Positions 5,790 to 25,472 of a DNA stretch of 27,832 nt are shown piece by piece; position 1 is the first letter of the stretch, and the number at the start of each line of letters is the position of its first letter. Source of the stretch: a virus. Location: IMG/VR virus record IMGVR_UViG_3300008218_001423, positions 1 to 27,832 of that record. The stretch is one strand, 5' to 3'. A program made the translations under genes and the position numbers. Below the pieces are notes generated by a model, which was not told the origin of the DNA, did not search any database, and saw nothing but the letters and a program-made list of their open reading frames with translations.

Positions 5790-8700
5790 ATGATAGGACC
5801 TAATCAACAAGCTTCAGACTGGTATTTGTCTATAGACAACGATCCTCTTTTAGAGAGAATACAAACTCCAACTGGCTGGAAGATTGTAGACGGGTTAGAA
5901 GAACACTTAATAGATAAAGATGATCCTGAGATACCTGCTTCTTGGAAACATATTACTAAGCCAGATCGTCCTTATTTAACCAGTCCCAAAATCCAAGATA
6001 AATCAGGTATTTGGAAGAGATATAACCCCTTTGTTTCTAAACATCACACAGTAACTCGTGATGATTCACGACGACCATGGACGGGTGTATTGTTTGAACC
6101 AGATCTTATTGACAAGCTCCCCTTTTCCTCGGCTAAAGATATACTAGAACAGGCAACATCTGAGCCCTCCAACCTAGAAAGATCTTCAGGAGAATACAGA
6201 GAACCTACTGGATATGGTTTCGATCAGCTTAAGGAAGACTGGAGTGGTAGCTATTTAGGTAAAAAAGGAACTAGTCTCTGGGAACATATTAAAAAAATAC
6301 CAAGTGCTTTTGCTAGGATTGGTACATTTGGTACAGAATTAGATTCTAAGTTTCAAGAAAGGTTTGGAGTCTCTCCTGGAATAGGAGATGTATCGGTTGA
6401 ACCTGAACTGGGTGATATAGGAGATGCTATAGAATCTGTGGGCGATTGGGCTGTTTCGGGAGTAGGTTGGGATGGGGTGGAAGAGAAGAAAGAACGACCT
6501 GACTATAGTTATCAACGAGCATGGATGAGGGGAGGCCCCGCAAGTTTGTTTAGTAAGGCAGGGACAGGTGTTAATACATCGGGGTACGAATATTTAATAG
6601 GATATATAAAAGAATCTCATAAGCTAGAACAAGACTTAATAAACCAAAAAGACCTACTTAAGAAGAGTGGAATTGATCCTATGACAGATCAAGATTTTTC
6701 CTATACTAAAGAAAAACTTGATGGCCTTTATAATAAAATACACACCATGTCTGATAATATTAAGAAATGGAGACAGGGTTATAGCCTAAGTATTTACAAT
6801 TATATTAATATAGAAAGCGATAGAATTAGAAACGAACTTGCTCATCTTGGACTTGAGAAAGAACCTAAACCATCTATACACAAAGTAGAAGATCCTGTAG
6901 AAAAGATTGATATAATTAATAAAGACAATCAAGATACAATTGAAAATAATTTGGCTAAAGATGTTATAGAAAATACTGGTAGTATTCCAAAAGGAGCATA
7001 CGATGCTTACTACTTTGAACCCCTAAACCAGCAAAAGTATAAAGAAATTAAAGAACCTATTGATGAGATTAGAAAGTCTCAGAATAGGTTTTTCAATATC
7101 AAAAATGAAATCTCTACCATGGCTAATAAAACTTATTCTGAAGGATTATATAGGCAGACCGATCCTTATATAATTGGATCAACTAAACAACTCGTACAGA
7201 TGCTAGTAAAGGCACCAGATCTTTCTAGCCAAGAACAAGGTATATTACTAAAAGATATTATTTCTAATTTAGATATTATTACTACTAGACTAGATAGTTC
7301 AACTCAACGATCAACAGAGTGGGGAACAGAAAACTCTACTGAAGAGTTATTAAAGTTTGCCTTTAGAGATATAGGATCTAATAGTACTGAAATAATGGCC
7401 AGCTTAATGAATATGATAGATGATATTAATACATCTTTGATAGTTCTACACGAAGAGAGAGCTGATCCTGTACGAAGTCTAGAGAACTTTGCTCTAGATA
7501 TGATGAGAGAAAATGTTAATCATGAGTTAAAAAGTATAGAAGATATGAACGCTTATGTTGGTGGACTTATGGCACAGGGCAGTAAAACTGGGCAATATAC
7601 TCATGGTGAAGTCGTAAGAGGTTTAGAGATTTATAATTCTGTGATGAAAAACGCTAAGCAATTCATGGGTAAGAAAAGTGTTAATGCTGGAATTGAGTCA
7701 GATATGACAGAGTTTCTTCATTTTCAAAGAGTACTGAATGATGATGGAAACATAGGTCCAGTTAAGAATAGTGTTAGTCCTAATAACTACTTGATCCGCG
7801 ATAAGAATCATAGGGCAAATCCAGATGAGGCAAGAGATTTACTAGAAGGCCAACGCTATATTGTTACCCAAGATTTTGCCAAAGACTTTAGACATTATAC
7901 TAGAAACATTCCAGCATTCTCCGAGTTATCTGAAGAAGAGATGATGGGTTTAGCCAATAATGCTGTTGGCAATATATTTATAGATAATGCTCCAAACGGA
8001 ACTGGAGAACTAAATACTAGGAGTTTATTTATTCCGCACTATGGAACAGCACTTATACTTAGTACTGCCAAACGAAGAAAAGATTGGGCTCCTGCGGAAG
8101 GTATGCATCCTGCTTTAGAAGTTATGGGAAAAACTCTTATGGATGTTGTAATAAGTGTAGGCGGTCGTAAGGGTGAAACAATTGAAAATGCTATTACCCA
8201 AAGAGATTTACACAATAGATATTATTCGTCTCTCTATAGTATAAATGAATTAATAAATGCAGCTGGAGATGCAAGTACTGGAGTATCTCATAATGTAGTA
8301 ATGAACATGCTAGGGCTCACAGAACAGAGCTATATAGCCCTTCAAGGATGGCTTGGTACTTTAGAAGCAAATGAATTTAATGCACAAGGTTTAAAAACAG
8401 GATCTTCTATGCTATCTACTTGGGCTACATTTGCCTTAAAAGAACTTTATGATAACAAGACTGGTGAAGTAATATCACCTAATCTAGAAGAAATGGACGA
8501 GAGGGAGTTAGCAATATATGAAACATTATATTCTCCTGAGTTATTAGCTGAAGTGTTTGGCGATACTAGAAATTCTAATATCAATAGAGATAACTTTATA
8601 GCTATTGCAACAGAGCAATATGATTCATCAAATTTTACTGATGAAGCAAAGCAGAGATTAGAAAGTCTTCCCGATCTTCCAAAGACCTTGATTGAAGCTA

Positions 8701-10685
8701 ATATGAAATATATTGATGCCACTAGTGAAGAATTTAGCGAAGAGAAATACATAAACGACATGAGACCATATCATAGATGGTTAGACCTAATGGATCCAAA
8801 TAGCCTAATAAACTTTATGGAGAACAACCGTCACTTAATAGATCAAGGACAGTATCAAGAATATATGAGCATGGCTACACAGTATCCTGAGTTAGTACAG
8901 TTGTCTATCCTGGATGACTGGGGCCGACAAACGGGTAATGAGTTAATGATGCAACATATAATTGGATCTTATGCAAGTCAGAATAAGGGAGATCTAATTC
9001 CATTTGGTAGTCTTCTTAAGATAGTTACCTCAGCACCTGCTAATAGTGGAATCAAACTTATCAATGGACGACCCATTCCTAATGATTATGTTCAGGTGAT
9101 GTTAGATCATTCGGGCGGAGCTACTAGAAGAGATAACCTTACAGGAGAAGGTGGATATTTCAGTACTAACTTCGGAAATGCTACAGCTGCAGTAGATAAT
9201 GATATTGGATTCTGGAGTCGTTTGTATAATCTTTCGACAACTGTAGCGCCAGAAAACCGACCATGGAGTTTTGGAGACTCTAGAATTGAAACAGTCAATA
9301 TACCTGATTCTCTTAAACCCATTATTAGAGAACGAGTTCAGTTTACTAAAGATGGAGTAACACTTTATAATAACTTTAATTATGGAAAACACTCTGGACA
9401 GGAAAGTCTAGCAATAGGAGAGCAACTCGTAAATAATCTAACAGGGATGGCTCACAATGCTAGTACAATCCAATTTAATACAGGATTTGAATCTTTAGAT
9501 TCTATTGGAAATCTAGGAACAGCGGGTGTATTAGAGGATCTGTTTATGCTTATGCAAGAACAACAGCTAGATGATCCTAGTGGTCAGCTCAATGATGCGC
9601 TGGTTGGAAAATTTTCTAATAAAGATATGATAGGAAACGCATTCTTTGATTGGGTTATGGTAAATTCAGAGACTAGAACAGTTGATGGTCAAGTCCAACT
9701 ATACTCACCAATCTTAGATGAAATAGGATGGGGGATTGAAGACCTTTTCCCTATACCTGTAACTGTAGCTCTGGAAGATAATAAAGAGATAATAAGAATA
9801 CAGAAAGAGATAAATGCTCATGAAGAAAAGCATAGAGATGATACGAGTTGGGATATTGCCATGTATGGTGCTTTCGAGCCCACTTTATATCTTGCTGAAA
9901 CGCAGACTTATAGGACAAACAAAAGAAAGTTAAAAGCACTAACTTCTAAAGAAGCCTTAATGAATAGATATGTAGGTACTGGTAAAACCGATTGGAAGTA
10001 TGCTGATGAAGATTTATATGTATTTCCTTTTATAGACTTTAAAGTGGAATGGGATACTATCACAGATCCTGTTACCAATCAGCGCAAAGATGTTCTTATG
10101 ATGTTTATAGGTGGAAAAGAAGTTCCTGGTCCAAATGGCATTCCGACTAGGAAATGGTTAAAACTAGGTACTGCTCCAGGTGGAGATAAATATAAGACTC
10201 CTATCCAAGGAACTGTTAGTGAAAAGTTTAAGAGAAATAGGACAGGGCATAATATGTGGACTGGTGAAAGACCAGTAAAAACTAAATATGATCTAGGTAA
10301 AGACTGGGCAGATCCTCAACAACAAATACACCGATCATACTTTCCTGCATCCCAATTTGGAGGAGAGGGACATGCTGAAGCATTTGTAAAAGATATACCA
10401 GCCTCTCCAGAAGCCTTAGCGGTGGAGTATGTTAGAGATCAGCAGTGGATAGACGATATGAGAGATTCAGAATTACAGAGAGTTAGAAGCAATGAAAGAT
10501 GGGCTACGTTAAACAAGAGACAAAAACAAGAAATTGAGGGTGATATTTTAAGACAAGCGAATTTAGATAGAAGACATTCTCTAAGTAGCTTTAGTAGGAT
10601 GATGGACAGTATGGACTGGACATTACCAGACGGATATATAGAGGATCTAATAAGAGAAAAGGAAATGATTAATGCCGAGAACTGA
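5790..10685 (+). CDS. Very large internal virion protein in the gp15 position
   Basis: A 1631-aa protein preceded by AGGAG at about 5780-5784 and starting 2 bases after the previous stop. It is hydrophilic with many predicted helices. It has no signal peptide and no clear membrane span, and I see no Walker, lysozyme, peptidase or polymerase motif. In T7-like phages the gene after gp14 encodes gp15 (747 aa), a tube-forming core protein that helps pull DNA into the cell; this protein is about twice that size. The last 150 residues are rich in Arg, Asp and Gln. The stop lies inside the start of the giant gene (14-base overlap), implying tight co-production of the two, as expected if they assemble together inside the capsid. 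Homology to gp15 is not demonstrated. Confidence 0.85.
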   Translation: MIGPNQQASDWYLSIDNDPLLERIQTPTGWKIVDGLEEHLIDKDDPEIPASWKHITKPDRPYLTSPKIQDKSGIWKRYNPFVSKHHTVTRDDSRRPWTGVLFEPDLIDKLPFSSAKDILEQATSEPSNLERSSGEYREPTGYGFDQLKEDWSGSYLGKKGTSLWEHIKKIPSAFARIGTFGTELDSKFQERFGVSPGIGDVSVEPELGDIGDAIESVGDWAVSGVGWDGVEEKKERPDYSYQRAWMRGGPASLFSKAGTGVNTSGYEYLIGYIKESHKLEQDLINQKDLLKKSGIDPMTDQDFSYTKEKLDGLYNKIHTMSDNIKKWRQGYSLSIYNYINIESDRIRNELAHLGLEKEPKPSIHKVEDPVEKIDIINKDNQDTIENNLAKDVIENTGSIPKGAYDAYYFEPLNQQKYKEIKEPIDEIRKSQNRFFNIKNEISTMANKTYSEGLYRQTDPYIIGSTKQLVQMLVKAPDLSSQEQGILLKDIISNLDIITTRLDSSTQRSTEWGTENSTEELLKFAFRDIGSNSTEIMASLMNMIDDINTSLIVLHEERADPVRSLENFALDMMRENVNHELKSIEDMNAYVGGLMAQGSKTGQYTHGEVVRGLEIYNSVMKNAKQFMGKKSVNAGIESDMTEFLHFQRVLNDDGNIGPVKNSVSPNNYLIRDKNHRANPDEARDLLEGQRYIVTQDFAKDFRHYTRNIPAFSELSEEEMMGLANNAVGNIFIDNAPNGTGELNTRSLFIPHYGTALILSTAKRRKDWAPAEGMHPALEVMGKTLMDVVISVGGRKGETIENAITQRDLHNRYYSSLYSINELINAAGDASTGVSHNVVMNMLGLTEQSYIALQGWLGTLEANEFNAQGLKTGSSMLSTWATFALKELYDNKTGEVISPNLEEMDERELAIYETLYSPELLAEVFGDTRNSNINRDNFIAIATEQYDSSNFTDEAKQRLESLPDLPKTLIEANMKYIDATSEEFSEEKYINDMRPYHRWLDLMDPNSLINFMENNRHLIDQGQYQEYMSMATQYPELVQLSILDDWGRQTGNELMMQHIIGSYASQNKGDLIPFGSLLKIVTSAPANSGIKLINGRPIPNDYVQVMLDHSGGATRRDNLTGEGGYFSTNFGNATAAVDNDIGFWSRLYNLSTTVAPENRPWSFGDSRIETVNIPDSLKPIIRERVQFTKDGVTLYNNFNYGKHSGQESLAIGEQLVNNLTGMAHNASTIQFNTGFESLDSIGNLGTAGVLEDLFMLMQEQQLDDPSGQLNDALVGKFSNKDMIGNAFFDWVMVNSETRTVDGQVQLYSPILDEIGWGIEDLFPIPVTVALEDNKEIIRIQKEINAHEEKHRDDTSWDIAMYGAFEPTLYLAETQTYRTNKRKLKALTSKEALMNRYVGTGKTDWKYADEDLYVFPFIDFKVEWDTITDPVTNQRKDVLMMFIGGKEVPGPNGIPTRKWLKLGTAPGGDKYKTPIQGTVSEKFKRNRTGHNMWTGERPVKTKYDLGKDWADPQQQIHRSYFPASQFGGEGHAEAFVKDIPASPEALAVEYVRDQQWIDDMRDSELQRVRSNERWATLNKRQKQEIEGDILRQANLDRRHSLSSFSRMMDSMDWTLPDGYIEDLIREKEMINAEN

Positions 10686-13600
10686 TCTTTGGGAACTAAA
10701 TCCAATGTCTATGACAGTAGGAGCTCCTGAGTTACAAAATGTCTTAGATGAGGAACGGAAAAGACAATGGGATAGTGTTAAGAATATGGAAGTCACTGGT
10801 CTTGACATCAACGAATATGGTAGAGCTCAACACTTTTTCGATCCTGATACAAATGAATGGATGTTTGGTCAGATGGATGCTGAGAGTGCTCTATTTGAGA
10901 GTATGTCAGCCAGTTATACTGCAGGTATCTTTGCTCGAAATGCAGCTAGCCAAGTTTCAGATGCACAAAACTTATCAAGAGGTAGAGATAAAGATGCTTT
11001 CGTAGGAACTATGATGGAGTTTGATGAAGATGCTGAGTTTTTAATTACGGACTTTTTAAATACTAGTAAAGTAAATATAGCTGCTGCCTTTCAGGGAGGA
11101 AAAGCTATACCTTTTGTTGAACAATGGTATGATGCTCCTGATGAGTTATTAATAAAGGAAGCCCCACTAGGATGGTCAGTAGCAGAAGCTATAGCACTGC
11201 TTGCAGATAGAAGTCCAGAGTCTTATGAAAAATATAGACAGGTATTAGGTGGTGAAGAAGGTATTCAAGAAGTAGTTAAAGATGCAAACAATCCTTATAT
11301 GTTTTGGTGGAAACTAAATACTGCAGTACAGAATAGAGCCTTTGCTTCTTCTATGGAATACTTAGAGAAGAATACAGGATTCTGGGAACGTAATTATCTA
11401 AAGGGTAAAAACTTTGTTGTTGCTGGTATTCTTAATGATCCTGATATGGTTGTATCTTTGGGCATAGGAGCAGCGTTGAATGTAGTTACCGCAGGTTCTG
11501 TTGGTAGTGCTTTGATAGCTGCTAGGATAGGTCAAAAATTCCACTCCTTAAGTAAGTGGGAGAAATCTGTTAATAGAATCACTAAGCTATCTAGTGTTGT
11601 TCATGGTTCTAGAGCTGCAGTTATGTGGCTACCTGAAAACATAGGCCCACATCTAATGAATAAATATGTATTTAAAAACGTTCAACATAAAGGAATAGGC
11701 AGATTCTTAGCGAATAGAACAGCAGATGCTGGTGAAGGTTTATTTACTGGTGGTCTTGCTGAGTACTTTAACCAGTCTAGGCAAATTAAGTACGGAAAAA
11801 GAGAAGAGTTTAGTGCTAGTGAAATTTGGACAGAAGCGTATTGGGAAGCTATATTTTCTCCAGTTATAAATCCTACTATGGGTCTTGCAATGAGAATACC
11901 AGGAGATATTGGTGGAGTTGTAATGGGCAATATCCCCCAGACTATGGCGAGATCAGCAGTAGGTACACGAACATATGATCTTATTCAGAAGTCTTTTGTC
12001 AGTAAGCAGATGGCTGGAGAAGCTAATATAGAACTGAAAAGACTTGGCAAGATGAGACAGCAGTTTGCTACAGCAACAGGTCAGGATTTCCATAATACCA
12101 ACATGGATGAATACCATGCTTTTAACTCTGCTGTAGCTCTATTACAATTGAATGAACAACAAACCGATGCTACAACATTTGAAGAAAGAATAGAGCAGGT
12201 TCTTAATAATGTAGTAGATGGTTTAGATGGACCAATGTCTGATATTGAAATAGCTGATAAAATGATTTCTGATTATGAAGCAACCTATGGATTCTCAACT
12301 AAAGAACCTGGTGGCATTTATGAGATGCGAGCTTTACTAAGAATGCGTTTACAATTAGATAAATCTAGAAAACTTTATAACGCTGATAATAGAAAGAACT
12401 TAGGTCTTGAAGAGTATATAGATCATGTAGAACAAACAGGAGATTATCTACAAGTCTTTGATCCTGTTACACAACAAGCTATACAGGATTGGTGGAAGAA
12501 ACAAAAGGTTAATAAGGATAAGCAATGGGCTGACACTTCTACAGATGACAAAGTACAGGCTGCAGTAGATATGCAGCTAGAACTAGCTGAAGCTGTACAA
12601 GCACTTGAAGAGCAATATAGAGTAGACAAAGAAGGAGCTCAAGAACAGTTACGATCATCTATAGATACAGTTAGAGAAAGCCTTGGGCAACCAACTAGAG
12701 ATCAAATCAGTACAGCTAAAATGGCTGCTAATACTGAGAAGAAACGGTCTAGCTTACAGGAAGAAGTAAAGAATCTGGATGAAGAAGTTAAGTCTGCTGC
12801 TGAATTTATTGGACCTCCTACTCAAGAAGCTTTAGACGCACAAGCACGAAGGGATGAAGCAAGTAAAGATCTAGATACTTTCAATGCTCAGAATCCTCCT
12901 CCAGGAGTTGATCCTAACTTTGTTGGGCCTATAACAGTAGATCAATCAGAGATGGAAGCTAACAGGGATGGTGATGTATCTCTCGATCCTGAGATAGAAA
13001 GTATGACAGATAAACAAGAAGCAGAGAGTAAGCTCTCTGGACTTATCAAGCAAGAGAATGAACTTCAGGCTAAGATTAGAGAAGCTCAAGATCAGCAAGA
13101 TAGAATTACTGAAGAAGATCTTGTTAAAGAAATGGCTAAAGTAACAGCACTAAAGAGAGATCTAACTGAAAGTTTAGATACTTTTATTAAACAAGAACGA
13201 GATGCTATTGAGCGTAGAGGTGGAGATCCTTCTATCATAGCTGATCTCGATGTCGTACTAGCTCTACGAAGGCGTTTAGAGAAAGCTGAAGAAGTACTAC
13301 GAGAAGCTAATAAAGATCTTTATAAGCTTAGATTCGCTATTATACCTGTTGCTTTGCACGAATTGCAACTTGCAATTAATGAAAATTCAGATCTCTTTGC
13401 TGATAAGGGTGAAGTAAACTCATCAGGTCTAACAGCTGAAGGTAGAAAAAATATTCAAGAGTTAATAGATAACATTCCAGATATTGGGCCGAAAATTGAT
13501 TATGGAATCTATCGTCCTCGTGGAAGGCAGTCTACTAGAATTAAGAATCTGTTAAGTAACTTCTTAAATAAACCAGGAGCTAAACTTAATCTGAAAGACT

Positions 13601-16600
13601 TAGCCGAGATAGGAACCTTTATTCAGGAAAGCTTAGCTCCCCATATAGAATCTAAAATTGAGAATTCTCAAGAAGGAAAAGCTTTGGCTGAGTTAAAAGC
13701 AGAAGAAGAGAAAGCATGGAATGCTTATAATGTTGCTCTAGCTAAGAATTGGCAAGTAGAAACTAAGCATAATAGATCCTTATTTATTACAATGGAAAAA
13801 CTTAGACAAGTTGTTAAACAGAGAAAGACTATTAAGACTGGTCTTAATCAGCGAGCAGAAATCTTTAATGGTTTAGTAAAGACAGCTACAGAACAAGGAA
13901 GGTCAACCTTGAAGTTCAATGAGATAAGAGGATTAATTCCAAAAACTTCTACGTACTGGTCAAGAGTATTAAGAAAATCTGTACATCCAGATAATATAGA
14001 ACTTTACAAAGAAAAAGAATATACTATAACTGAAGCTAGAACGATATTTGAAGAAGCTAGCGAGGAAGTTAGAAAATATGCAAACAAACTTCAAATAGGA
14101 ATGAGTAGACACATGATGTCTCTTGATAGCTTCTCCTCCTTAGATGCAGCCTTTGCTCATGATGTAGATGAAGACTATATCTTTGATGTTGAACAGACTA
14201 TAGATGAGTATTTAGATGAAACAGATATTGGTCTATCAGATGCTGAACAAGCAACGCGAGACTTGTATGTTGAAGCAGGAGAGTTAGAAGACTTTTATGC
14301 ACAGTTAAAACTATTTAAATCACGGTATAAAAATAATATTCCAGCAGGTTTAGTCAATGCTGTAATGCCTGTTTACTTTGATAAAGTAGGAGGTAAGGCT
14401 GGCATCGGACTATTCAGTTTCTTCAAGAAACACATTATATGGGAGGGAAACCTACACGAAGATATGACTCCTGGAGAATTATGGTTAGCTATGGATAGAA
14501 TTAAGTTTGACTTAAAAGGTGTTATCCAAACCACTAAAATTGCTATGCTTAGAACACATGTAGGTCTAGGTAAGTGGTCAGAAGCTCTTGCTAGAAAAGG
14601 CATGGATGATATTGTAACTGATCTAACAGATGAAGGTGGTAAGGACAGTATCTATAACTTAATCAATAGTACCAGAGTTATAACTAGACTTGAACAAGCA
14701 CAGAAGGTACTTAATACCAGACTATTTCAAGACTTTGGATTTGTACTTGCAAGAGACGAAGATGGCTTTCCTACAAGACTTGTTAAAAAGGGGGAAGAAA
14801 ATAGAGTTACAGAATCACAGTGGTTAGGCAAAGTAAGAGAAGCTATGGAAAAAAGAATAGCTCTTATTATAGAAGACCAAGGGGTAGAGAAAACTATAAG
14901 AAATATACAAGAGATATATCCTACCTTCTTAACTACCGAATCTGAATACAAAGGACTTGATAAAACTACCTATGTTATAAAAACAATCTATAATGAACAT
15001 GAAAGCGAAAGTAATGACTTTTCTCCTGACGAAGAGTTTCATATATCCGATATGGGTAACGGTAAACGTGATTGGCAATCTGCAGATGAAGTAGGCAAAG
15101 CTTTAGTAGATATGATTACTGGAAAAGAATTAGTTACTAAGTCTCCACTATACATGATGGATCCTGATGAAGCACTTAAAAGAGATATTGATGAGTATGA
15201 AGCTAACCAACATCCCTCTCTTCAAGTTACTCTTCCAATGGATAATCAATCTAATAGAGCTGCTCCTATAAGTCCAAGAGATCTATTTAGAAATTATCAA
15301 AACTATAAATGGAGAAAAAGAGTTCAAGCTGTAGTGGATGAGAAGTTAACTCCCGCCAAAAGAAGAAAGCTATATGCTTGGATTGAGAAGAAGAGTAAGG
15401 TTCTGTTCCCTGATAAGGTTGGAGAAGATTTACATATGGCTATATTACCTACAGTAGTAGGAACTGCTCTCCATGAAAGAGTTATAGGATGGGAGGAATT
15501 AAAGCAATTCTATAGAGAAACTATGCTCGAAATGCCAATGATTGGTATAGGACATATCCATGACGAGATGACAGCAGCTAAAACTGATAGGGTAGACTTT
15601 GCTGCAGAGTATAGAATTAACCATCCTGGTGTTTCTGCCGGCTCTTCACTTATAGTTCCCTTTGGAAAGATCGGTGAGATTATGGCTTTGGAATCTTCAT
15701 GGAGTGGATTCAAGGGTTTAACAAAAGCATCTATTATTCATGCAGCTAGAATTGTAGCTCAGCATATAGAGTCTGGTAAACCTATAGGAGATCTCTATGC
15801 TCCAGAACATTATAAAGATAGAAGCTTTAGTGGTCTTATGGAAATTAAACTTCTAGCTATGGCAGGCATTGGTGAAGGAATCAGTCTAGATGTCGATGGC
15901 GTTACTCATAATATAGATGAAGTTATAGACGGATTAATTAAAGGAACTATTGCTGACCAGTATGGCGGTGTAGAACTAGACTTCTATCGTGCTTCAGGAT
16001 CTTTTATCGCTGCTCAGATTGATGCTACATATAGACAGGGATTAGATGCAAAAGATACAGCTGGAGGTCTTCTCTCAAAATTTAACAATGTCTTCAGAAT
16101 ACTGAGAAGAGAAAATAGTAACGAGTTTATGACAATGGAAGAATGGGGAGCAGAAGTTGATAGGCTAAATGAGTTAGGTGATGAAGAGAGCTTGAAGAAA
16201 GTAGCTCAATTCAAAGCTGTTAGAGAGTTCTTTAAAGTGCCTGTTATGCGTAGACTATATCAAGGTGGCATGAATTCCTTTATGACTGAGTTTAGACCTA
16301 GTGATTTTAGGGATTTTAAAGGACAAGTAAGTGCTCCAAAAGGAGTCCAAGCTCTGCTTGAATTAGAAGATCAATTTGGGGTTAATTTTTCTGAGGCTGA
16401 AGTTGTAGCTATTGGTGAACAAATGTTTAAGGAAATAGTTAACCATCATTCTATCATGTTTACTCAAGATCTAATGAATACAGCTATACCTATGGTTAAA
16501 GAAGGCATTACTTTAGATGCTGCTATGGGTATGATGAAAGGTACTAAAAGTGCTGCAATAAACTTATTGAGAATGGATATCAGAGGAACATCGGCTGTAG

Positions 16601-19600
16601 AAACAATGGTTCGCAATTGGGTTGACAAGGTTCGTATCTGGTCTAATGGAGAAAAGACTGGACTCTCTGAATCACATCCTCTATATAAAGTAAGTACAAT
16701 TAAAGATTCTTGGGAATCTGTTATGGATGATATGACTGATAAAGTCTATGGTCGAGCTGAGGGTAACGAGAAGGCTTGGGAGAAAAACAGAAAAGCAGTA
16801 GCTAAAATGTATGAGCCTCGACTAAAGAAAGCAAGAAAATATCTAGATGATCTTCCAGATGGATTTCAGCTAATTCCAGGATCTAAAGAGTGGAAAGAAT
16901 TAGAGATGATCATGTATGGCAATGTTGATGGCGAAGCTGGAGAAGGTCCAAGAAAATTATACAAAAGTCTGGGATACTTTAAAGGCCTGAATATAAAGAA
17001 TAGAACAGCCCATAAACTAAACATTGAACGTATGAAAAGAATCTCAGAATATATGGGTATTCAAGACTTTGATTCTAGAGATTTCTTAGGTCTTGGTAAC
17101 TTCTTATTGTACCATACAGCCCTGCCAACAGTAGGAAGCTATCGAGTTACTGATCGAGCTGCTGGACATGGTATGAATACACAAGGAGCTTTCTGGGAAC
17201 GCATTGCTAAGAATCCTGATATGATTGATCCTGAAGTAGCAACCAAAGATTCTATCTTTCATATAGAAGCTAAGAAGCTAAGAAAAACTGTAGACGAATT
17301 AACCCTAGAAGAAAAGCAACTTATTCTTGCAGAGTATATGGAACAGAACTCTGATAACCTTGATGCCTTAGGTATGTCGGATATAGTAAATAATCCATAC
17401 TTTGGAAATGATGCATCAGGAAAACCTAAGTATACTAAAGAACAATTTGATCAATTAATCGAAGACTTGATGCTAAAGAATATGTTAATTCAATATTCTT
17501 CTTATGATAAACCGCCTCTTACTGATTATACTGCTGAGGATGTCGAAGGACAATTGGAACAAGAATGGTTAAAGGATATGTATCTTCACACTAGGCGTAG
17601 AGAAAAGACTCTGAAGAGTGAAATGGCACAAGAAGAAGATTGGCTTAATAAAGGAAGCAGAGATTCTCGGTGGATGACTCTTCTTGGTCTGAAAGCTAAG
17701 ACTGGTCGAATTGTTAATCCTGGTGTAGCAAGAGCTTTAGGCGTTTCTCTTAGTACCTTTACTAAGATGGAGTATCCTAAAACTACAGTACATGAGGGCA
17801 AGAAAGCTTTAAGTAAACATACAGGAAATCTTTTGGGTCCTCTATCAATGCAGCCTAAATATAAGCAGGTTTCATTCCATGACAAGGGTATGTTCTTCTT
17901 ACAAAAACTGGAAATGCAACGACAGCAAAAAGAAATTCTTGGTCCACATATGTTAGCTGAAGAGATGACTTTTGAAAATAATGAAGATGCATTTATTCCT
18001 AGACATCACTTTGGATATACACAACCTTGGAAACGAGAATCACTTCCTAAGCCATTACCTATTGCAACATCTTATCTTCAAAACATAAGAATGGATAATG
18101 AAGCAGGTATAAAAGCTGGACAACTGATGGGTCAATTATTTAGGTGGGCAGATTCTAGAGGATATCTAGAGACTATAGAAAAGGATCCCACAACTCTACC
18201 TTACTTTGTTAACATTATGAACTCAGAGAATATCAGAAGAAAGAATATTAGAAGACTGAACCGATCTCTAACTCCTGAGGCAGCGGAAGCAGAAATAATT
18301 TCAGAAAGAATTAATTACTTACTTGAACTACATAACTTGACTTATCTCTCTAGAGATATTAAGAGAGCTGTAGTCAAAGGACAGGTATGGTCTCCTAAAG
18401 GTAGGCCTCTATCTACTGTCGAAGGTTTAAGAACTATAGAGAAAAGATTATTAGCAAACGACAAAACTTTGATCATGGAAGATCTACTTACAAATCCTTT
18501 ATCTGAAACTAATCCTACAGGATATATTCTAGATCCTACTCTTATTCACGAACAACTAGAATATGGTTTAGTAGCTAGAGAAGGTATGACTTTAACTGGA
18601 GAAAATATTACCGACAATCCAGATGTCTTTGTGATGACTGATCTTCATCTAGTATCTGCTCCAATTCAATCGCATGACTTTAATAGATTTATGTTAGCTA
18701 TGCTCTATGATAACTATATTCAAGAAATTATTTTAACAAATGATGACTTTACTCATCTAAGAGAATTTGCTGGTAATCCTAATGCTTGGGATGTTGAGAT
18801 ATCTGTAGAAGAGCAACAGCAATTAGTTGATCTAGCTTTCTTGAAAGCAGAGATGGAACATGGTGGACTAAATATTGAATTCTTAATTCCTCAAGAAATG
18901 ATTAAAACTATTTCCTCAAAAGATGATGTACAGCAAATTAATATTATGCTAGATCAAGTTAGAGTTATCCGAAGAAACGATGGTGTTGAAGTAGACGTAA
19001 CCCAAGGTCTACGACATTCATTTAGTAATGTAGGTTTTGGTTTCCAGACTGTTGCACCTAGAGCTGTTATAGGACAGAACGTAAAGCTTGCTCTAACATT
19101 TGATGCAGCTATAGGAATGATGGCTCTACTAGAGAATCAAAAAGATCTAGCAACTATTAATCTAGGTATGCAGTCTAATAAGAACATTAATACTAAAATG
19201 AGCGATGCTTCTAAGTCAAAATGGGTTAGAGCTAAATTACCTTCTGATTATGCTGAAGAAGCATTGGGTCGTACAGAAGAAGCTAGAACTAGAGAAACTG
19301 TTCTTTCATCAGAAGCTATGGAAATGATAGCTAGAGCTATAGATCCAAATGCTGCACTACCTACTGTAACCAATGTTCATAATAAGATTGACGGAGTTCC
19401 TATTGAAGTCGTTGATCTCGATGCTTACAGATCTTCTCCCGTAGAAGGTATGAGCCATGTTGTAACTGAAATGTATATCGCTCCTATCCAAAATGTACTA
19501 AATAGAATCAGAAGAAATAATGTTAGCCATATAGCAGAAGATGGTCTTGCTAAGATAGAAAAGTTAATAGTAGATGTAAGAAGAGAACCCCATCATGATG

Positions 19601-22600
19601 CAAGACGGACTGAACTGATCTTATTAAGTGCTATGGTAGATATAGGAGATAGTGTCTTAACAAAAGAAATGATAGAAGTTGTTCTTAATAAAAAAGCTTT
19701 ACCTGCTAAACAGGCTGCTACGATTATTAAGAATGCCCATGATACAGCTTCATCTTTATACAGATCAATAGTTAATGTAGCACATGATAAACATGCTTAT
19801 TACAAGAATCCACTTAGCGATATGGCTAGAGAATTTTTATGGTCGTATCAAATTAGTCAAGAATCAACTATACAAAATAGTAGAGAAGCCTTTGTTAATA
19901 AAATTATGGAAGAGATAAGAACAGGAGAAGAGGGAGTATCTATTGATGAACAGACTCTTGATCTTAGTGCTTTGGTAGATTCTTATGGAAATTTTGAATC
20001 GCCCAAAGGAGAAACTTATAAAGTAAACGAAGATACAATTAAGTTCTTAGCTAATCAAGCTTATGATTTTGCTTTAGTAGAACAAGCCTCAGACTACAAT
20101 CAACCACAAAGAGAATGGTTTGGAGATATTCAAACCTATACTAATGATGTTGTTAGAGTTAGTAGGACTTCAGAAAACTTAAGATCCTATGCTCTTGAAC
20201 AAGGTGGTAAGGATGGCAATCCAGATCTTGAACGACTGGGGTCTCAAATAGATAATCTCACTGTCTCTAAAGAAAAGCCTGACAATTTCTTAGATGCTAA
20301 AGGTGCTAGAATATTAAGAGCTGTAATTCTTAGAATGTATACTTATGATCCAATGAGTCTTCACTTATTAAACTTTGATGAAGGTACGCTGACGCAAGGA
20401 GTTAATCAACATCTAACCTTAAGAGGTGAGTCAAAACGGATTGGAGACAGAGTTGAGATAACAGTAGACAAGGAATTAAAGGGTCAGCATCATAAAGCTC
20501 TAACTGTCCTAGTTCATGAGTTAGCACATGCTGCTACATTTAAATATCTAGCTCTTGGTTCTCCTGAGTATAATACTTGGCTTAGACTTCATAACAGTAA
20601 GAAGGGTAGAATTTACTTAGAGAAGATGGTTATCGCTTGGGAGGGTGGTATCCGAACAGCTAGAACAGATAAACTGGTTGAGTACTATATGTCTGAGCCT
20701 AAAGAATTTGTAGCTGCTATGGTACAGTTTCACTTACTTAATGAAGTAGCTGAAATACCAATGGACATGGAATGGACAGATGGAGATAATACAGTACATC
20801 AAGCATCTATGGGATTATTAAAAAAGGTTATGCACTATGCTCAAGAATTCTTTTTAAGAATAAGTTCTGTATTTACAAACTTTAAAAAAGAAGATCCTGA
20901 TCTGTACAGTCGCTATAAAGAATTAACTGAACGAGCGTTAGGATGGGATGCTAAGGCTGGTGAGACTATAGCACAAACAACAGAACCTGCTTGGACTAAA
21001 GCTAATTTTGTCGAATCAAAGAATGAACAACCAATCTTTCAACAGCAAGAAGGAACTGTCTCAGATAGTGAATATCAAGCATTAATAAATAGAAGAAATG
21101 AGCTAGATAATCAAAGACAGGCTTTAGATAAAGAAGGTAAGTTGGATGAGTTTGCTGATGCAAATGAACTTTTTGATCTAGAAGCAGATCTAGAAGCCCA
21201 TGGTGGAGAGGCTAGTCTAATTGGAGAGACTACACGGCTAACATATTTTGAGACTATTGCTCGATTAAAGCAGAGGTTTGCTCCTGAAAAAGGTGGTAAT
21301 CAGATTCTAGATCTTAAGCGTATGCTCCAATCAGAAGGAGTGGGTATAACTGAGCAAACAGTGGTCATGGAGTATATTGTAAGACGGTTAAGAGATGTCT
21401 TTGGCGATCCTATGACAGCCAATGCTGCTGTTGCAGGACGAAGAAGTTTGGAGTGGTTATCAAAGTTAGTCGGTAAAGATAAAGGATATGCTCAACAAAT
21501 GCTTACAGATGTTATGGTGGGTCAAACAGGTGCTACTAAAACTTGGAGTGGTCTAACAATATTCCAACAATTATTCTCTGCCTTACTAGATGATAGAGTT
21601 GTAATGACTATGAATGGTATTAGCCGATTTAAAGGTATGCCCAGTGTATCTAGACATCTTAACGAATTAGATTTAGTTGGCGAACAAATGAGATCTTTCA
21701 ATTTAGATCTTGAAGAAATTAGTAATAAGCAAGACGATACTATTGCTATGCAAACAGAACTAATTCACTTAGTAGATAATCCAGATCACACAATATCTTT
21801 ACCAGACAGGTTTACTCCTCAACAAGTTGCAGATGCTACTGAGATTATTGAACATGCTTCTGGATCTATGAGCAGATTCCTACGAGACTTAATTAAGAGA
21901 GGCAATGATATTGGTATTTTTTCTGGTGGATTTGAAACTCTAGTCCCTTATAGATTTAACGATGTCTTTACTGGAAATACAGAAGTAAAAGAAACATTCC
22001 AAGATCTAATGAAACGAATGATATTTGATAGGCTAACTAGTAGTATGATTGATCCTAAAGGAAAGGTAGATGGAGCTACTCTATATACCTCTAAGCAGAT
22101 ACCGTCAGTTTCCTCACCCGAAGCAATGGTTAAAGATATTAAACGATTAGTCAAGACTCCACATACTAGAAACTTTATCTATCATCTAATGTCTGATATC
22201 TTAGGACCAGATGGACTAGATAAGTTAGGAACAGCTACTGAACCTGGGCAAATTAATGAACAGATTAAAGCACAGATAGATGTTCTTGGCGAAGGTGTAG
22301 AAGGTGAAAAACTAGTTAGTGATGTTGCTAATATTCGTGCAATGTTAATGGACAGAATACAATCCTTTATTGGCGATGCTGCCAGTGGTAAAATATCTTG
22401 GACTCAGCTAGGTGTTATGTCTAAGAGTCCTGCTTCTAAGTGGCATTCAGATTATGAAGCTGCAATTACTGCTAATACTGATCCTATGAAACTAGCAGAC
22501 CAATCTATTATTACAAGAATTAATGAACTGTCAATTGAAGGTAGTCAACATTTATCTCATGTCTATCATCGAGTAGATCCAGATTCTCAAGGGCCTCCCC

Positions 22601-24870
22601 TATCAGGACATGCTGGTGGAATTAGATCTGTAGTTGATCTTCACTACTTCAATCTTGAAAGTAAAGCTTCTAGAGGTTTGTACTTCCCTAATGATGCTTG
22701 GGCTGTTCCCCGTTTTTCTGATCTTGCAGACCATCCTAAGTCTAAAGAATTAACCTCAGCTTTGATGACTAACCCTCACTTCTTGGTAACTCAATTTAAG
22801 AAATCTAAAGGTGATTCGATTATTGAAATTAAAATGATGAGAGAAGCTTTTGGGGTACATGGAGATTATGGTGATGTATTATCTCTGGCTAGGACAGTTG
22901 TTGCTCAAGCAGTTTCTATTAAACATCCTAATGGAGAAGCTATTTCAGATCATGAAAGACAGGATTTGAAAGATGGTATAAATCAGCTTGAAGGTAAGTG
23001 GGGCTTTGTTCGTGGTATTACTACTTCAGCTAAAGCTACAGACAGGTTCTCTCAATGGTTAATGGATGTAGCTCCTTCTATAACTAAGATTGCTTATGGG
23101 GGTAACTTAGCCCTAGCTAGTGGTATGGTAGAAGGAACCTTTAGTGCTATGATCGAATTGTTTGGTCGTCAAAGTATTACAGGATTTGCGAGAACATTTA
23201 TATCTCCATTATTACCACTTAATAAAACAGTTAGAAAGAAAGTAGCTAGAGATCTACTCCATCAAATTGAAGCTGTTACTCAGGGATATGTACCTGATTT
23301 CCAAAGACCTTCACAGGCAGCTCAAGATTCAGCTCTAACACGGCTTATAAAACTAGGTGGTAGAGGAATGATGTGGCCTGCAAAACAAACGATTCAAGGT
23401 ATTGCAATATCTAGAGCTATTACTTTAAGACTAGCAATTACTGATATGTGGAAATCTGGAAAGCTAGAAAAGTTAGTATATAAACTACAAGGAGCAGATA
23501 TTAAAACAGATCGAGATCTATTAAAGGCAATGAGATCTAAAGATGTTGGTATTTCTAGAAAAGAACTAAATGTAGTTAAGCTAATGATTGAAGCTGGTTT
23601 ATTCCTAGATGCTGAAGGTGGAGGATCTTGGAATGCTTTTAATGATATCTTTAATAAGTTTGGCGTTGCAGATGAATCATACTATGGGATTGGTGATTTG
23701 CTGAATAAATTTAATACTACAAAATCTTCTAGTGATGGAGACTATCGAAGTGCTCTAGAGGTTATGACAAAATTAAGAGGTGTTGAGAAAGCCTTCATTG
23801 AACAGGTACTAATTTCGCCTAATGCCTTTGATATCTATACAGGTGCTAACAAGGGTGGACAAGGTGTGATGGATACTATTTGGGAAATCTTTAGACGCTA
23901 CCCAGTTCTATTTACATCTCAAAAGTTTATTAGGGCTGGTGGTCAAATGAATCCTGCTATGTGGGGACTACAGCTCATGTCCTTAATAATACTAGATATA
24001 CTTTATATGATGATGCTTCGTATAGCTGCTGGAGAAGAACCCAATGAGATCCTGGATGATTTTGATAAGAATCCTAAATCTTTTATAGCAACCTATGGAT
24101 TCCGTATACCTATCATGGGTAGATGGGTGCCTATTCTAGGACAGATCGTAAAATCAGTAATAACTGATAAGCCTAATAGACAAGAGTCTATGATTCCGCT
24201 ATCAGCTTTTGGAGGTATTATACAGAATATTAAAGATGTTCTAGGTTCAGCCTTTACAGATCAAGAGATGACTGGAGAAGAATGGATGAAAGCTCTAAGG
24301 AATGTTCCAGGTATTGGAGATACTCTAGTTAGACTAGCCTACAACTTAGGTAAATCTTCTTTAGACTCTGAAAATAAAACTAAAGGTATGTCCCATAGAA
24401 CAAAGATGGAAGGCTTTAAGAACAACGGAGGAAACTTTGGTATGACTGAAGGCTTGAGACAGGCTACTCCTGAGTGGTGGATAGGTGAGCTAATCAAGGA
24501 ACTATTTGGTGGTATTCAACCATCAGTGATGGATACAAATATGTATAAGCAGTTAGTAGAAGGATCTCCTAGGCCAACCACAGAACCTACTCAAGCTCCT
24601 CCAGAGCCTGTAGGACCAAAGCCAGTAGAGCCTACATCTCCTGTAAATACTTCAGATGGAATCCTAAGGAAAATAGCTGCTCAGGAAGGCGTATCTGGAG
24701 ACTTAGCTCTTAGGCTTAGAGGAAGGCCAGATCGTCCAGGAGAAGGAGCCCATCGGTATATACCCCCAAAAAATCAGAGAGGCATTATAGAGAAGGGTGA
24801 AAGGGTTGAGGGAGAGTCTGAAGATTACTACCGACAGCATGGATACACAAGAAGCCAGAGAGAGCGATAG
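10672..24870 (+). CDS. Giant 4732-aa virion protein, probable ejected multi-domain protein
   Basis: One uninterrupted frame of 4732 codons (roughly 520 kDa), with AAGGAA before the ATG and a 14-base overlap with the preceding gene. It sits in the T7 gp16 position, last in the ejection block. Visible parts in order: a hydrophobic Ala/Gly segment at 260-288; a long coiled-coil region at about 626-890 and again near 1030-1090; a polymerase-like region (D1770; R1851-x3-K1855-x7-Y1863 within KVPVMRRLYQGG); a zinc peptidase signature HELAH at 3282-3286 with downstream EPKEF at 3342-3346; helical C-terminal blocks resembling the ends of phage polyvalent/ejection proteins; a strongly hydrophobic segment at 4430-4455; a Pro-rich linker at about 4620-4660; and a basic tail. 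I infer packaging in the capsid and ejection with the DNA. Giant virion proteins with enzymatic domains are known (N4 virion RNA polymerase, about 3500 aa); this one is longer. Confidence 0.9.
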   Translation: MPRTDLWELNPMSMTVGAPELQNVLDEERKRQWDSVKNMEVTGLDINEYGRAQHFFDPDTNEWMFGQMDAESALFESMSASYTAGIFARNAASQVSDAQNLSRGRDKDAFVGTMMEFDEDAEFLITDFLNTSKVNIAAAFQGGKAIPFVEQWYDAPDELLIKEAPLGWSVAEAIALLADRSPESYEKYRQVLGGEEGIQEVVKDANNPYMFWWKLNTAVQNRAFASSMEYLEKNTGFWERNYLKGKNFVVAGILNDPDMVVSLGIGAALNVVTAGSVGSALIAARIGQKFHSLSKWEKSVNRITKLSSVVHGSRAAVMWLPENIGPHLMNKYVFKNVQHKGIGRFLANRTADAGEGLFTGGLAEYFNQSRQIKYGKREEFSASEIWTEAYWEAIFSPVINPTMGLAMRIPGDIGGVVMGNIPQTMARSAVGTRTYDLIQKSFVSKQMAGEANIELKRLGKMRQQFATATGQDFHNTNMDEYHAFNSAVALLQLNEQQTDATTFEERIEQVLNNVVDGLDGPMSDIEIADKMISDYEATYGFSTKEPGGIYEMRALLRMRLQLDKSRKLYNADNRKNLGLEEYIDHVEQTGDYLQVFDPVTQQAIQDWWKKQKVNKDKQWADTSTDDKVQAAVDMQLELAEAVQALEEQYRVDKEGAQEQLRSSIDTVRESLGQPTRDQISTAKMAANTEKKRSSLQEEVKNLDEEVKSAAEFIGPPTQEALDAQARRDEASKDLDTFNAQNPPPGVDPNFVGPITVDQSEMEANRDGDVSLDPEIESMTDKQEAESKLSGLIKQENELQAKIREAQDQQDRITEEDLVKEMAKVTALKRDLTESLDTFIKQERDAIERRGGDPSIIADLDVVLALRRRLEKAEEVLREANKDLYKLRFAIIPVALHELQLAINENSDLFADKGEVNSSGLTAEGRKNIQELIDNIPDIGPKIDYGIYRPRGRQSTRIKNLLSNFLNKPGAKLNLKDLAEIGTFIQESLAPHIESKIENSQEGKALAELKAEEEKAWNAYNVALAKNWQVETKHNRSLFITMEKLRQVVKQRKTIKTGLNQRAEIFNGLVKTATEQGRSTLKFNEIRGLIPKTSTYWSRVLRKSVHPDNIELYKEKEYTITEARTIFEEASEEVRKYANKLQIGMSRHMMSLDSFSSLDAAFAHDVDEDYIFDVEQTIDEYLDETDIGLSDAEQATRDLYVEAGELEDFYAQLKLFKSRYKNNIPAGLVNAVMPVYFDKVGGKAGIGLFSFFKKHIIWEGNLHEDMTPGELWLAMDRIKFDLKGVIQTTKIAMLRTHVGLGKWSEALARKGMDDIVTDLTDEGGKDSIYNLINSTRVITRLEQAQKVLNTRLFQDFGFVLARDEDGFPTRLVKKGEENRVTESQWLGKVREAMEKRIALIIEDQGVEKTIRNIQEIYPTFLTTESEYKGLDKTTYVIKTIYNEHESESNDFSPDEEFHISDMGNGKRDWQSADEVGKALVDMITGKELVTKSPLYMMDPDEALKRDIDEYEANQHPSLQVTLPMDNQSNRAAPISPRDLFRNYQNYKWRKRVQAVVDEKLTPAKRRKLYAWIEKKSKVLFPDKVGEDLHMAILPTVVGTALHERVIGWEELKQFYRETMLEMPMIGIGHIHDEMTAAKTDRVDFAAEYRINHPGVSAGSSLIVPFGKIGEIMALESSWSGFKGLTKASIIHAARIVAQHIESGKPIGDLYAPEHYKDRSFSGLMEIKLLAMAGIGEGISLDVDGVTHNIDEVIDGLIKGTIADQYGGVELDFYRASGSFIAAQIDATYRQGLDAKDTAGGLLSKFNNVFRILRRENSNEFMTMEEWGAEVDRLNELGDEESLKKVAQFKAVREFFKVPVMRRLYQGGMNSFMTEFRPSDFRDFKGQVSAPKGVQALLELEDQFGVNFSEAEVVAIGEQMFKEIVNHHSIMFTQDLMNTAIPMVKEGITLDAAMGMMKGTKSAAINLLRMDIRGTSAVETMVRNWVDKVRIWSNGEKTGLSESHPLYKVSTIKDSWESVMDDMTDKVYGRAEGNEKAWEKNRKAVAKMYEPRLKKARKYLDDLPDGFQLIPGSKEWKELEMIMYGNVDGEAGEGPRKLYKSLGYFKGLNIKNRTAHKLNIERMKRISEYMGIQDFDSRDFLGLGNFLLYHTALPTVGSYRVTDRAAGHGMNTQGAFWERIAKNPDMIDPEVATKDSIFHIEAKKLRKTVDELTLEEKQLILAEYMEQNSDNLDALGMSDIVNNPYFGNDASGKPKYTKEQFDQLIEDLMLKNMLIQYSSYDKPPLTDYTAEDVEGQLEQEWLKDMYLHTRRREKTLKSEMAQEEDWLNKGSRDSRWMTLLGLKAKTGRIVNPGVARALGVSLSTFTKMEYPKTTVHEGKKALSKHTGNLLGPLSMQPKYKQVSFHDKGMFFLQKLEMQRQQKEILGPHMLAEEMTFENNEDAFIPRHHFGYTQPWKRESLPKPLPIATSYLQNIRMDNEAGIKAGQLMGQLFRWADSRGYLETIEKDPTTLPYFVNIMNSENIRRKNIRRLNRSLTPEAAEAEIISERINYLLELHNLTYLSRDIKRAVVKGQVWSPKGRPLSTVEGLRTIEKRLLANDKTLIMEDLLTNPLSETNPTGYILDPTLIHEQLEYGLVAREGMTLTGENITDNPDVFVMTDLHLVSAPIQSHDFNRFMLAMLYDNYIQEIILTNDDFTHLREFAGNPNAWDVEISVEEQQQLVDLAFLKAEMEHGGLNIEFLIPQEMIKTISSKDDVQQINIMLDQVRVIRRNDGVEVDVTQGLRHSFSNVGFGFQTVAPRAVIGQNVKLALTFDAAIGMMALLENQKDLATINLGMQSNKNINTKMSDASKSKWVRAKLPSDYAEEALGRTEEARTRETVLSSEAMEMIARAIDPNAALPTVTNVHNKIDGVPIEVVDLDAYRSSPVEGMSHVVTEMYIAPIQNVLNRIRRNNVSHIAEDGLAKIEKLIVDVRREPHHDARRTELILLSAMVDIGDSVLTKEMIEVVLNKKALPAKQAATIIKNAHDTASSLYRSIVNVAHDKHAYYKNPLSDMAREFLWSYQISQESTIQNSREAFVNKIMEEIRTGEEGVSIDEQTLDLSALVDSYGNFESPKGETYKVNEDTIKFLANQAYDFALVEQASDYNQPQREWFGDIQTYTNDVVRVSRTSENLRSYALEQGGKDGNPDLERLGSQIDNLTVSKEKPDNFLDAKGARILRAVILRMYTYDPMSLHLLNFDEGTLTQGVNQHLTLRGESKRIGDRVEITVDKELKGQHHKALTVLVHELAHAATFKYLALGSPEYNTWLRLHNSKKGRIYLEKMVIAWEGGIRTARTDKLVEYYMSEPKEFVAAMVQFHLLNEVAEIPMDMEWTDGDNTVHQASMGLLKKVMHYAQEFFLRISSVFTNFKKEDPDLYSRYKELTERALGWDAKAGETIAQTTEPAWTKANFVESKNEQPIFQQQEGTVSDSEYQALINRRNELDNQRQALDKEGKLDEFADANELFDLEADLEAHGGEASLIGETTRLTYFETIARLKQRFAPEKGGNQILDLKRMLQSEGVGITEQTVVMEYIVRRLRDVFGDPMTANAAVAGRRSLEWLSKLVGKDKGYAQQMLTDVMVGQTGATKTWSGLTIFQQLFSALLDDRVVMTMNGISRFKGMPSVSRHLNELDLVGEQMRSFNLDLEEISNKQDDTIAMQTELIHLVDNPDHTISLPDRFTPQQVADATEIIEHASGSMSRFLRDLIKRGNDIGIFSGGFETLVPYRFNDVFTGNTEVKETFQDLMKRMIFDRLTSSMIDPKGKVDGATLYTSKQIPSVSSPEAMVKDIKRLVKTPHTRNFIYHLMSDILGPDGLDKLGTATEPGQINEQIKAQIDVLGEGVEGEKLVSDVANIRAMLMDRIQSFIGDAASGKISWTQLGVMSKSPASKWHSDYEAAITANTDPMKLADQSIITRINELSIEGSQHLSHVYHRVDPDSQGPPLSGHAGGIRSVVDLHYFNLESKASRGLYFPNDAWAVPRFSDLADHPKSKELTSALMTNPHFLVTQFKKSKGDSIIEIKMMREAFGVHGDYGDVLSLARTVVAQAVSIKHPNGEAISDHERQDLKDGINQLEGKWGFVRGITTSAKATDRFSQWLMDVAPSITKIAYGGNLALASGMVEGTFSAMIELFGRQSITGFARTFISPLLPLNKTVRKKVARDLLHQIEAVTQGYVPDFQRPSQAAQDSALTRLIKLGGRGMMWPAKQTIQGIAISRAITLRLAITDMWKSGKLEKLVYKLQGADIKTDRDLLKAMRSKDVGISRKELNVVKLMIEAGLFLDAEGGGSWNAFNDIFNKFGVADESYYGIGDLLNKFNTTKSSSDGDYRSALEVMTKLRGVEKAFIEQVLISPNAFDIYTGANKGGQGVMDTIWEIFRRYPVLFTSQKFIRAGGQMNPAMWGLQLMSLIILDILYMMMLRIAAGEEPNEILDDFDKNPKSFIATYGFRIPIMGRWVPILGQIVKSVITDKPNRQESMIPLSAFGGIIQNIKDVLGSAFTDQEMTGEEWMKALRNVPGIGDTLVRLAYNLGKSSLDSENKTKGMSHRTKMEGFKNNGGNFGMTEGLRQATPEWWIGELIKELFGGIQPSVMDTNMYKQLVEGSPRPTTEPTQAPPEPVGPKPVEPTSPVNTSDGILRKIAAQEGVSGDLALRLRGRPDRPGEGAHRYIPPKNQRGIIEKGERVEGESEDYYRQHGYTRSQRER
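15775..17115 (+). other. RNA polymerase-like region inside the giant protein
   Basis: Residues 1702-2148. T7 RNA polymerase has GKPIG upstream of motif A, the catalytic D537 in motif A, and R627-x3-K631-x7-Y639 with VM three residues after the Lys in motif B. Here GKPIG occurs at 1702-1706, an Asp followed by RASGS at D1770, and R1851-x3-K1855-x7-Y1863 with VM at 1858-1859. The D-to-K spacing is 85, against 94 in T7. A PDGF at 2062-2065 resembles the T7 TPDGF segment. Motif C is not securely placed: candidates are D2137 (DSRDF) and D2691 (LTNDDF, preceded by SAPIQSHDF, compare T7 PNFVHSQD). No DxxGR/TxxGR was found. This is a divergent or decayed polymerase, or a coincidence. Confidence 0.38.
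20500..20715 (+). other. Zinc metallopeptidase (zincin) signature inside the giant protein
   Basis: Residues 3277-3348. HELAHAAT (H3282, E3283, H3286) follows a hydrophobic strand (ALTVLV), the classic HExxH zinc helix. About 56 residues on, SEPKEFVAAM provides a Glu (E3342 or E3345) where many phage polyvalent-protein zincins have an EF or EFxA third-ligand helix. The motif is complete, so peptidase activity is plausible, either self-processing of the giant or cleavage of a host or virion protein. Substrate unknown. Confidence 0.65.
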
Positions 24871-25265: not shown

Positions 25266-25472
25266 ATGTTTGAGTATATTTTTGTTAGTGTGTTAGTTAT
25301 CGTTGCTCTTGCTATCGTCGGATGGTTCGAGCGTAACATCCTTCGGGGTGAGTGGCTCAAGGATGAGCCAGAGGAGGAAACACAGTTGTATCACGACTCT
25401 GTGTATATCTCAAAGGAAGAAGAGGAGGAACAGCAGAGAGCCTACAACTCTGTGTTTGAAGAGGAAGAATGA
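25266..25472 (+). CDS. Small single-span membrane protein with acidic tail
   Basis: A 68-aa protein with AGGAG at 25253-25257 and ATG at 25266. Residues 3-21 (IFVSVLVIVALAIVGW core) form one clear transmembrane helix, probably an uncleaved anchor since no signal-peptidase site is evident. The remainder is soluble and very acidic, with an EEEEE run at about 51-55 and an EEEE end. Charge placement (FERN and R after the helix) suggests the tail stays in the cytoplasm. The gene lies between two GC-(T/A)TA-GC hairpins. It could act on the host membrane or on DNA-binding proteins through its acidic tail; nothing specific is recognisable. Holin is possible but unsupported by a lysis neighbour. Confidence 0.72.
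   Translation: MFEYIFVSVLVIVALAIVGWFERNILRGEWLKDEPEEETQLYHDSVYISKEEEEEQQRAYNSVFEEEE

Follow-up and report, generated by a model that had tools for sequence, protein, structure and literature searches.

The locus and its giant gene

The window is the whole of IMG/VR virus record IMGVR_UViG_3300008218_001423 (positions 1 to 27,832; 27,832 nucleotides), and its largest open reading frame (ORF) encodes a protein of 4732 amino acids (aa). We propose that this giant protein of a T7-like marine phage is probably ejected from the virion and carries a single-subunit RNA polymerase, very divergent from, but of the same type as, the virion RNA polymerase (vRNAP) gp50 of phage N4. An earlier note on this DNA had made a similar proposal from a handful of residues, and the strings it quoted (R1851, K1855, Y1863, KVPVMRRLYQGG, D1770, GKPIG, D2137, D2691 in LTNDDF, and SAPIQSHD) are all found where it placed them. 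The features that carry the argument are:

10672..24870, + strand: the giant ORF (4732 aa), proposed to encode an ejected virion protein with polymerase
14284..16566, + strand: proposed polymerase domain, residues ~1205-1965 (approximate boundaries), a conserved block of which 1769-1954 aligns with T7 568-690 in both structural models
15319..15321, + strand: R1550, proposed counterpart of N4 R424 and T7 R425, invariant in 21/21 sequences
15817..15834, + strand: motif A, D1716-x3-S1720-G1721, with D1716 placed on N4 D559 by hhalign
15979..15987, + strand: D1770-x-Y1772, equivalent to T7 D569-I-Y571 and N4 D610-L-Y612 by conservation, hhalign and both models
16222..16260, + strand: motif B, R1851-x3-K1855-x-P1857-x5-Y1863, with R, K and Y invariant in 21/21 sequences
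20515..20529, + strand: zincin site HELAH (H3282-E3283-H3286; HExxH invariant where covered), and E3345 further downstream

Relatives were collected through the terminase, because the giant protein of the window itself gave no useful database match. With the terminase large subunit (TerL) of the window as the query, 80 IMG/VR loci were obtained, many of them on contigs of ~57-67 kilobases (kb). A homologue of residues 1400-2833 is encoded in 14 of the 26 records tested, the matched pieces being 25-40% identical and most of them 25-32%, and the homologous giant ORFs span 4662-5490 aa. These ORFs were extracted and aligned, and further members were added through conserved N- and C-terminal blocks. 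The main conservation alignment holds 21 sequences with ~15-30% identity to the window; a separate alignment covers 1200 residues in 20 homologues. No relatives of the giant protein were found in isolated phages, nor in bacterial genome contigs with the C-terminal block alone as the query, and deeper sampling of IMG/VR by motif and of the relative L145 gave no additional members. Three terminase relatives, L149, L150 and L151 (G019, G020 and G022), encode another kind of giant protein (~3500 aa); a HELGH site is found in it around residues 1030-1060, and motif B is not recognisable.

Conserved polymerase motifs

The residues invariant in all 21 sequences are R1550, D1631, G1657, P1663, R1851, K1855 and Y1863. 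In the 20-homologue alignment the invariant columns are the same with the addition of D1716, and all lie in its first ~400 residues. As judged from these alignments, the conserved positions are the places expected of a single-subunit polymerase, namely motif A, D-x-Y and motif B. The reference motifs, taken from fetched sequences, are D537-GSC-SG (motif A) and R627/K631/Y639 (motif B) in T7, and D559-GVT-NG and R666/K670/Y678 in N4.

Motif B is where the earlier note was most successful: the three residues that it singled out are those found invariant, and P1857 is kept in 20/21 sequences. By this sequence criterion R1851-K1855-Y1863 is a genuine motif B of the single-subunit RNA polymerases, far beyond chance. 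Motif A had been misplaced. The Asp that had been proposed for it, D1770 (conserved in 19/21, with Y1772 in 20/21), belongs to the D-x-Y element, and motif A is instead at D1716, which had gone unnoticed. D1716 is present in 20/21 sequences as aligned, the lone exception being L145, in which the alignment displaces motif A; S1720 is kept in 18/21. The strings GKPIG and RASGS, which had been offered as T7 hallmarks, are not conserved in the homologues. Finally, R1550 may correspond to N4 R424 and T7 R425, given the resemblance of RANHFLKFDPE in L145 to RMQMLGKYNPQ in N4.

Sequence and structural links to known polymerases

The window protein itself has no match to PF00940 or to phage RNA polymerase families, and the sequence link is made through L145 (relative G016). 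The corresponding part of its 4409-aa giant frame reads YMDANGSGPN..DLYLEV..RGLMKGPVMTVPYNAG, in which MDANGSG and RGLMKGPVMTVPYNAG are close to ADGVTNG and RGIAKNPLTITIYGSG of N4. L145 matches the phrog_414 RNA polymerase family at 529-635/816, over the motif B region (E 8.5e-8), and matches PF00940 at E 8e-4, under the Pfam cut-off. Homology of L145 to the window family is seen just upstream of the polymerase-matching stretch, where a family profile that excluded L145 scored E 7.5e-18. When the family was compared by hhalign with ten N4-type vRNAPs, motif A, D-x-Y and motif B fell in register, with P 0.0098 (P 0.0061 for a second alignment against the N4 vRNAP), both values being uncorrected for the few comparisons made. 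The N4 profile against single members gave weak hidden Markov model E values of 0.06-0.9, on motif B for several members. The L145 giant ORF (L145:14874-20000) also has an exonuclease domain inside it (phrog_298, E 5.8e-8; PDDEXK-like DUF3799).

Two AlphaFold2 models were made, of residues 1485-2684 (model 1, 1200 aa) and 1205-1965 (model 2). In VIA-align comparisons, the highest-ranking of 210 chains for model 1 was T7 RNA polymerase (Z 7.0), followed by the yeast mitochondrial polymerase (Z 6.6). Model 2 against 511 chains gave four with Z>=5, all of them T7 or mitochondrial polymerases, the best at Z 7.4 with a root-mean-square deviation of 2.7 over 101 residues; N4 mini-vRNAP scored Z 3.7. 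The top-scoring T7 alignments of both models pair residue ~1769 with T7 ~568, and the N4 alignments pair it with N4 608-609; this is the register predicted from the motifs. The models support the fingers fold of a single-subunit polymerase, at Z 7.0-7.4 to T7 568-690 in both, values in the range that the alignment tool calls middling. Foldseek against viral models returned one match, to an uncharacterized protein (E 3.3e-4), which is uninformative.

Domain order, packaging genes and a second polymerase

In N4 gp50 an HExxH motif lies in the C1 domain, 3′ of the polymerase (PMC12633501). The giant protein has the same organization, with the polymerase region in the middle followed by an HExxH domain; VHELAHAATF of the window compares with IHELVHASTF at 2228 of N4 gp50, in the same place in the domain order.

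The packaging genes are T7-like rather than N4-like. The relevant gene is:

1845..3521, + strand: terminase large subunit (TerL), T7-like by family matches and by identity to S-TIP37

The marine T7-like phage S-TIP37 has a TerL with 39% identity to this one, and the packaging genes match PF22530 and, just under the cut-off, the T7 gp18-type DNA_Packaging_2 family. TerL and the PF22530 match bear out the T7-like packaging that the earlier note had described. With its T7-like terminase the phage does not have the N4-like packaging expected of Schitoviridae, and it is not filed as a schitovirus. A separate T7-type polymerase of 814-842 aa is encoded in 12 relatives that have the giant gene on long contigs; the window record stops at 27.8 kb, before any second polymerase gene could be checked.

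Candidate hairpin promoters

N4 vRNAP reads small hairpins with a 3-base loop located before the early genes (PMC4496689). An exact repeat of 25 nucleotides, with a stem of 6 base pairs and a TATGT loop, occurs twice 3′ of the giant gene:

25467..25491, + strand: candidate hairpin promoter 1, GAATGATGGTATGTCCATCAACCTG, start codon 41 nucleotides after the stem
25808..25832, + strand: candidate hairpin promoter 2, the identical 25 nucleotides, start codon 31 nucleotides after the stem

The hairpin is also present 3′ of the giant gene in G005 (three copies), G002, the near-identical records G008/G009, and G013, where the stem carries a compensatory change (TGTTGG/CCAACA). The shared element is TGATGG-TAT(n)T-CCATCA, followed by A-rich or C-rich ACC/AGC. 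Eight sites were found in five phages (52.7 kb), compared with 0 in 200 randomised sets, and at 6/8 of them the next start codon is 28-46 nucleotides after the stem, the other two being ambiguous. A genome-wide scan found only the early sites and one in G021, and a backwards control pattern gave 0. A T7-type promoter would be expected genome-wide, and the hairpin is not so distributed. It is plausible that the 25-nucleotide hairpin is a promoter for the vRNAP.

A second, longer hairpin (CCTCATACAGATACATTC / GAGTGTATCTGTATGAGG) is located at 26435-26478 of the window, and a repeated relative of it, AATACAGATACATTC..GTGTCTGTATT, is found in G005 (L216 999 and 1430). This makes two conserved elements in the early region, of which the longer hairpin may be a terminator or a processing site.

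A probable virion polymerase of the N4 type

The family is related to single-subunit polymerases, having their conserved motifs, the domain order of gp50 and conserved hairpins next to the giant gene. Taken together, we consider it probable that this T7-like phage lineage has, in the giant protein, a virion RNA polymerase resembling N4 gp50. The giant protein would be packaged inside the head, to be ejected along with the DNA. Its polymerase domain (~1205-1965; R1550, D1716, D1770-x-Y1772, R1851-K1855-Y1863) would then be catalytically active and transcribe the first genes, starting at the small DNA hairpins just 3′ of the giant gene. Later transcription would be taken over by the separate T7-type polymerase, whose gene is located further along in the relatives, as is done by RNAPII in N4. 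The core of the earlier note, an N4-like polymerase in a giant virion-type protein with T7-like packaging, is therefore upheld by conservation, the L145 profile matches, the two-model structural alignment, the domain order and the candidate hairpins; its assignments of motif A, GKPIG and motif C are replaced.

Several observations weigh against this interpretation. The giant protein of the window gave nothing useful against PHROGs, Pfam, PDB sequences or phage isolates, and the hhalign P values are modest. Both models are of low confidence (mean predicted local distance difference test score, pLDDT, 56.3 and 58.2), with the fingers among the better parts; the palm region is mostly at pLDDT <50 in both, so that there is no confident palm domain, the VIA-align Z values are middling, and polymerases were absent from the Foldseek matches of both models to the PDB. 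For the motif C Asp there are rival candidates in the giant protein family. Lastly, the hairpin is present in 5/16 phages examined, and the others may use a different stem or none.

One alternative is that a degenerate polymerase fold, no longer catalytic, has been kept for some other function, for instance to bind DNA in the ejection channel. The ambiguity of motif C and the retention of a separate T7-type polymerase in relatives fit this idea; however, motifs A and B keep their catalytic-type residues invariant at ~25% identity, which suggests selection on them, and the presence of conserved early hairpins is in keeping with an enzyme that reads hairpins. We therefore regard a degenerate fold as unlikely. 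Still less credible is a chance occurrence of the motif in some unrelated, helical protein of the virion, which would accord with the lack of sequence signal in the window protein alone and is strongly disfavoured by the invariant motif residues of the family, the significant L145 profile matches and the common register in two models.

Among known systems, the closest parallels to the proposed N4-type enzyme are with N4 gp50 itself (Schitoviridae; mini-vRNAP residues 998-2103). In both, a giant protein has a single-subunit polymerase in its middle part, with D-x-Y and a motif B of the form R-x3-K-x-P-x5-Y, and an HExxH domain afterwards; N4 and the window's relatives alike encode another T7-type phage polymerase and have early-region hairpins. 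Unlike gp50, the family is found in phages with a T7-like terminase, has no significant per-sequence match to it, consists of larger proteins (4.7-5.7 versus 3.5 thousand aa), has D-x3-S-G rather than D-G-x-T-N-G in motif A, and has no motif C found downstream; the candidate hairpin loop is of 5-6 nucleotides, compared with 3 in N4. T7 RNA polymerase (gene 1) and the mitochondrial polymerases (PF00940) share with the family motif A (D537-x3-S-G), D569-I-Y571, motif B and the fingers fold (Z up to 7.4), whereas the window protein is unmatched by PF00940, its domain is embedded in a giant protein, and its relatives carry an ordinary T7-type polymerase as well.

In T7, the internal core or ejection protein gp16 is encoded by the largest ORF, the last in a block of internal virion genes. 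The giant ORF is likewise the largest and the last of the presumed internal virion genes, but gp16 has no polymerase, and no sequence match between the two was seen. Phage P23-45 also has a polymerase within a virion protein of ~5000 aa and a second, non-virion polymerase; its enzyme, however, is homologous to cellular polymerases and is located in the tail tape measure protein (PMC10770324).

The giant virion polymerase has been described as unique to N4-like phages (PMC12633501). Our data suggest that this transcription strategy, thought to be exclusive to them, also occurs in an unrelated lineage of phages, where the pieces of the active site may be in a rearranged order. If so, the N4 and T7 strategies would be combined in phages that have T7-like packaging and their own T7-type polymerase, which would bear on the kinship of gp16-type and gp50-type ejection proteins and would provide a source of new hairpin-reading polymerases.

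Position of motif C

Both Asp residues that the earlier note had put forward for motif C fail for lack of conservation: at the position of D2691 (LTNDDF) Asp is present in the window only (1/12), and D2137 is variable (7/13). Two other residues come into consideration:

15562..15564, + strand: D1631 (IGHIHDEMTAA), proposed motif C at a permuted position, invariant in 21/21 sequences
18676..18678, + strand: D2669 (SAPIQSHD), conserved Asp 3′ of motif B, possible counterpart of N4 D929 and T7 D787, or rival motif C

They correspond to two layouts: (i) a permuted palm, in which motif C has moved 5′ of motif A to give the order C-A-B; and (ii) a conventional palm with a long insertion, in which motif C is at D2669 or in a nearby diverged hairpin, ~800 residues after motif B. 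These are sub-hypotheses of the N4-type interpretation, and the confidence placed in each is a share of that placed in the whole, not an addition to it.

The permuted order is a serious possibility, although short of an even chance. Besides the invariance of D1631, its surroundings resemble motif C in L145 (ATVHDSI) and L133 (AIHDAI), compared with GVHDAI in the N4 family. In L145, which has textbook motifs A and B, the sole motif-C-like HD/FD string from 700 residues before to 1100 after motif B is the upstream one, and the alignments contain no fully invariant Asp after motif B. On the other hand, the profile alignment gained no more from shifting the N4 motif C segment upstream than from shifting other segments, both models have low confidence in the motif C region, and D2669 downstream is nearly invariant.

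The conventional order is possible but slightly more doubtful. D2669 is occupied by 17 Asp and 1 Glu among 18 sequences, in a context resembling that of N4 D929, 22 residues before N4 motif C; similarly, SAPIQSHDFNRFM resembles IHSLDALIMSEL of the N4 family, ~22 residues before motif C there. However, the matching place for motif C is D2691, which is not conserved, and the family alignment has no conserved Asp in register after D2669. The insertion would span ~550 residues, and the Glu in one homologue is a further difficulty.

In its fullest form, which we put forward tentatively, the proposal is of a permuted-palm DNA-dependent single-subunit RNA polymerase, ordered as Arg motif, C, A, D-x-Y, B. 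T7-like phages would have it within a giant ejected protein, and it would read hairpin promoters with 6-base-pair stems. The order C-A-B is present in the RNA-dependent polymerases of birnaviruses. A search of open papers found no permuted DNA-dependent single-subunit RNA polymerase, and an upstream motif C would, to our knowledge, make this the first one known.

Neighbouring ORFs and additional polymerase-like frames

Directly 5′ of the giant gene is a further large ORF, with no match in family searches:

5790..10685, + strand: 1631-aa ORF, by its position a probable second ejection-type protein

At the other end of the window, 27034-27832 is occupied by a 266-aa ORF truncated by the contig end. 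Its stretches SNTLSWFDEEQFLI and LDYRFRKYAI have a faint resemblance to T7 polymerase, and profiles gave no signal. We considered it as the phage's gene-1 polymerase and rejected it, the T7-like and N4 profiles scoring not above shuffles; comparison with N4 RNAP1 and RNAP2 gave nothing noteworthy, and homologue searches found none.

Among the relatives, L095 (G015:C1:2375-3475, - strand) has a second, divergent T7-type polymerase besides the usual one on the contig, with a 717-aa frame scoring 98.8 bits to PF00940. In G027 (C1:39576-40737, - strand) the T7-type polymerase match extends over two frames (620 + 259 aa), possibly because of a frameshift, an insertion or a sequencing error. A partial PF00940 match of 19 bits in a 385-aa frame, at G006:C1:860-1006 (+ strand), is possibly a polymerase fragment.

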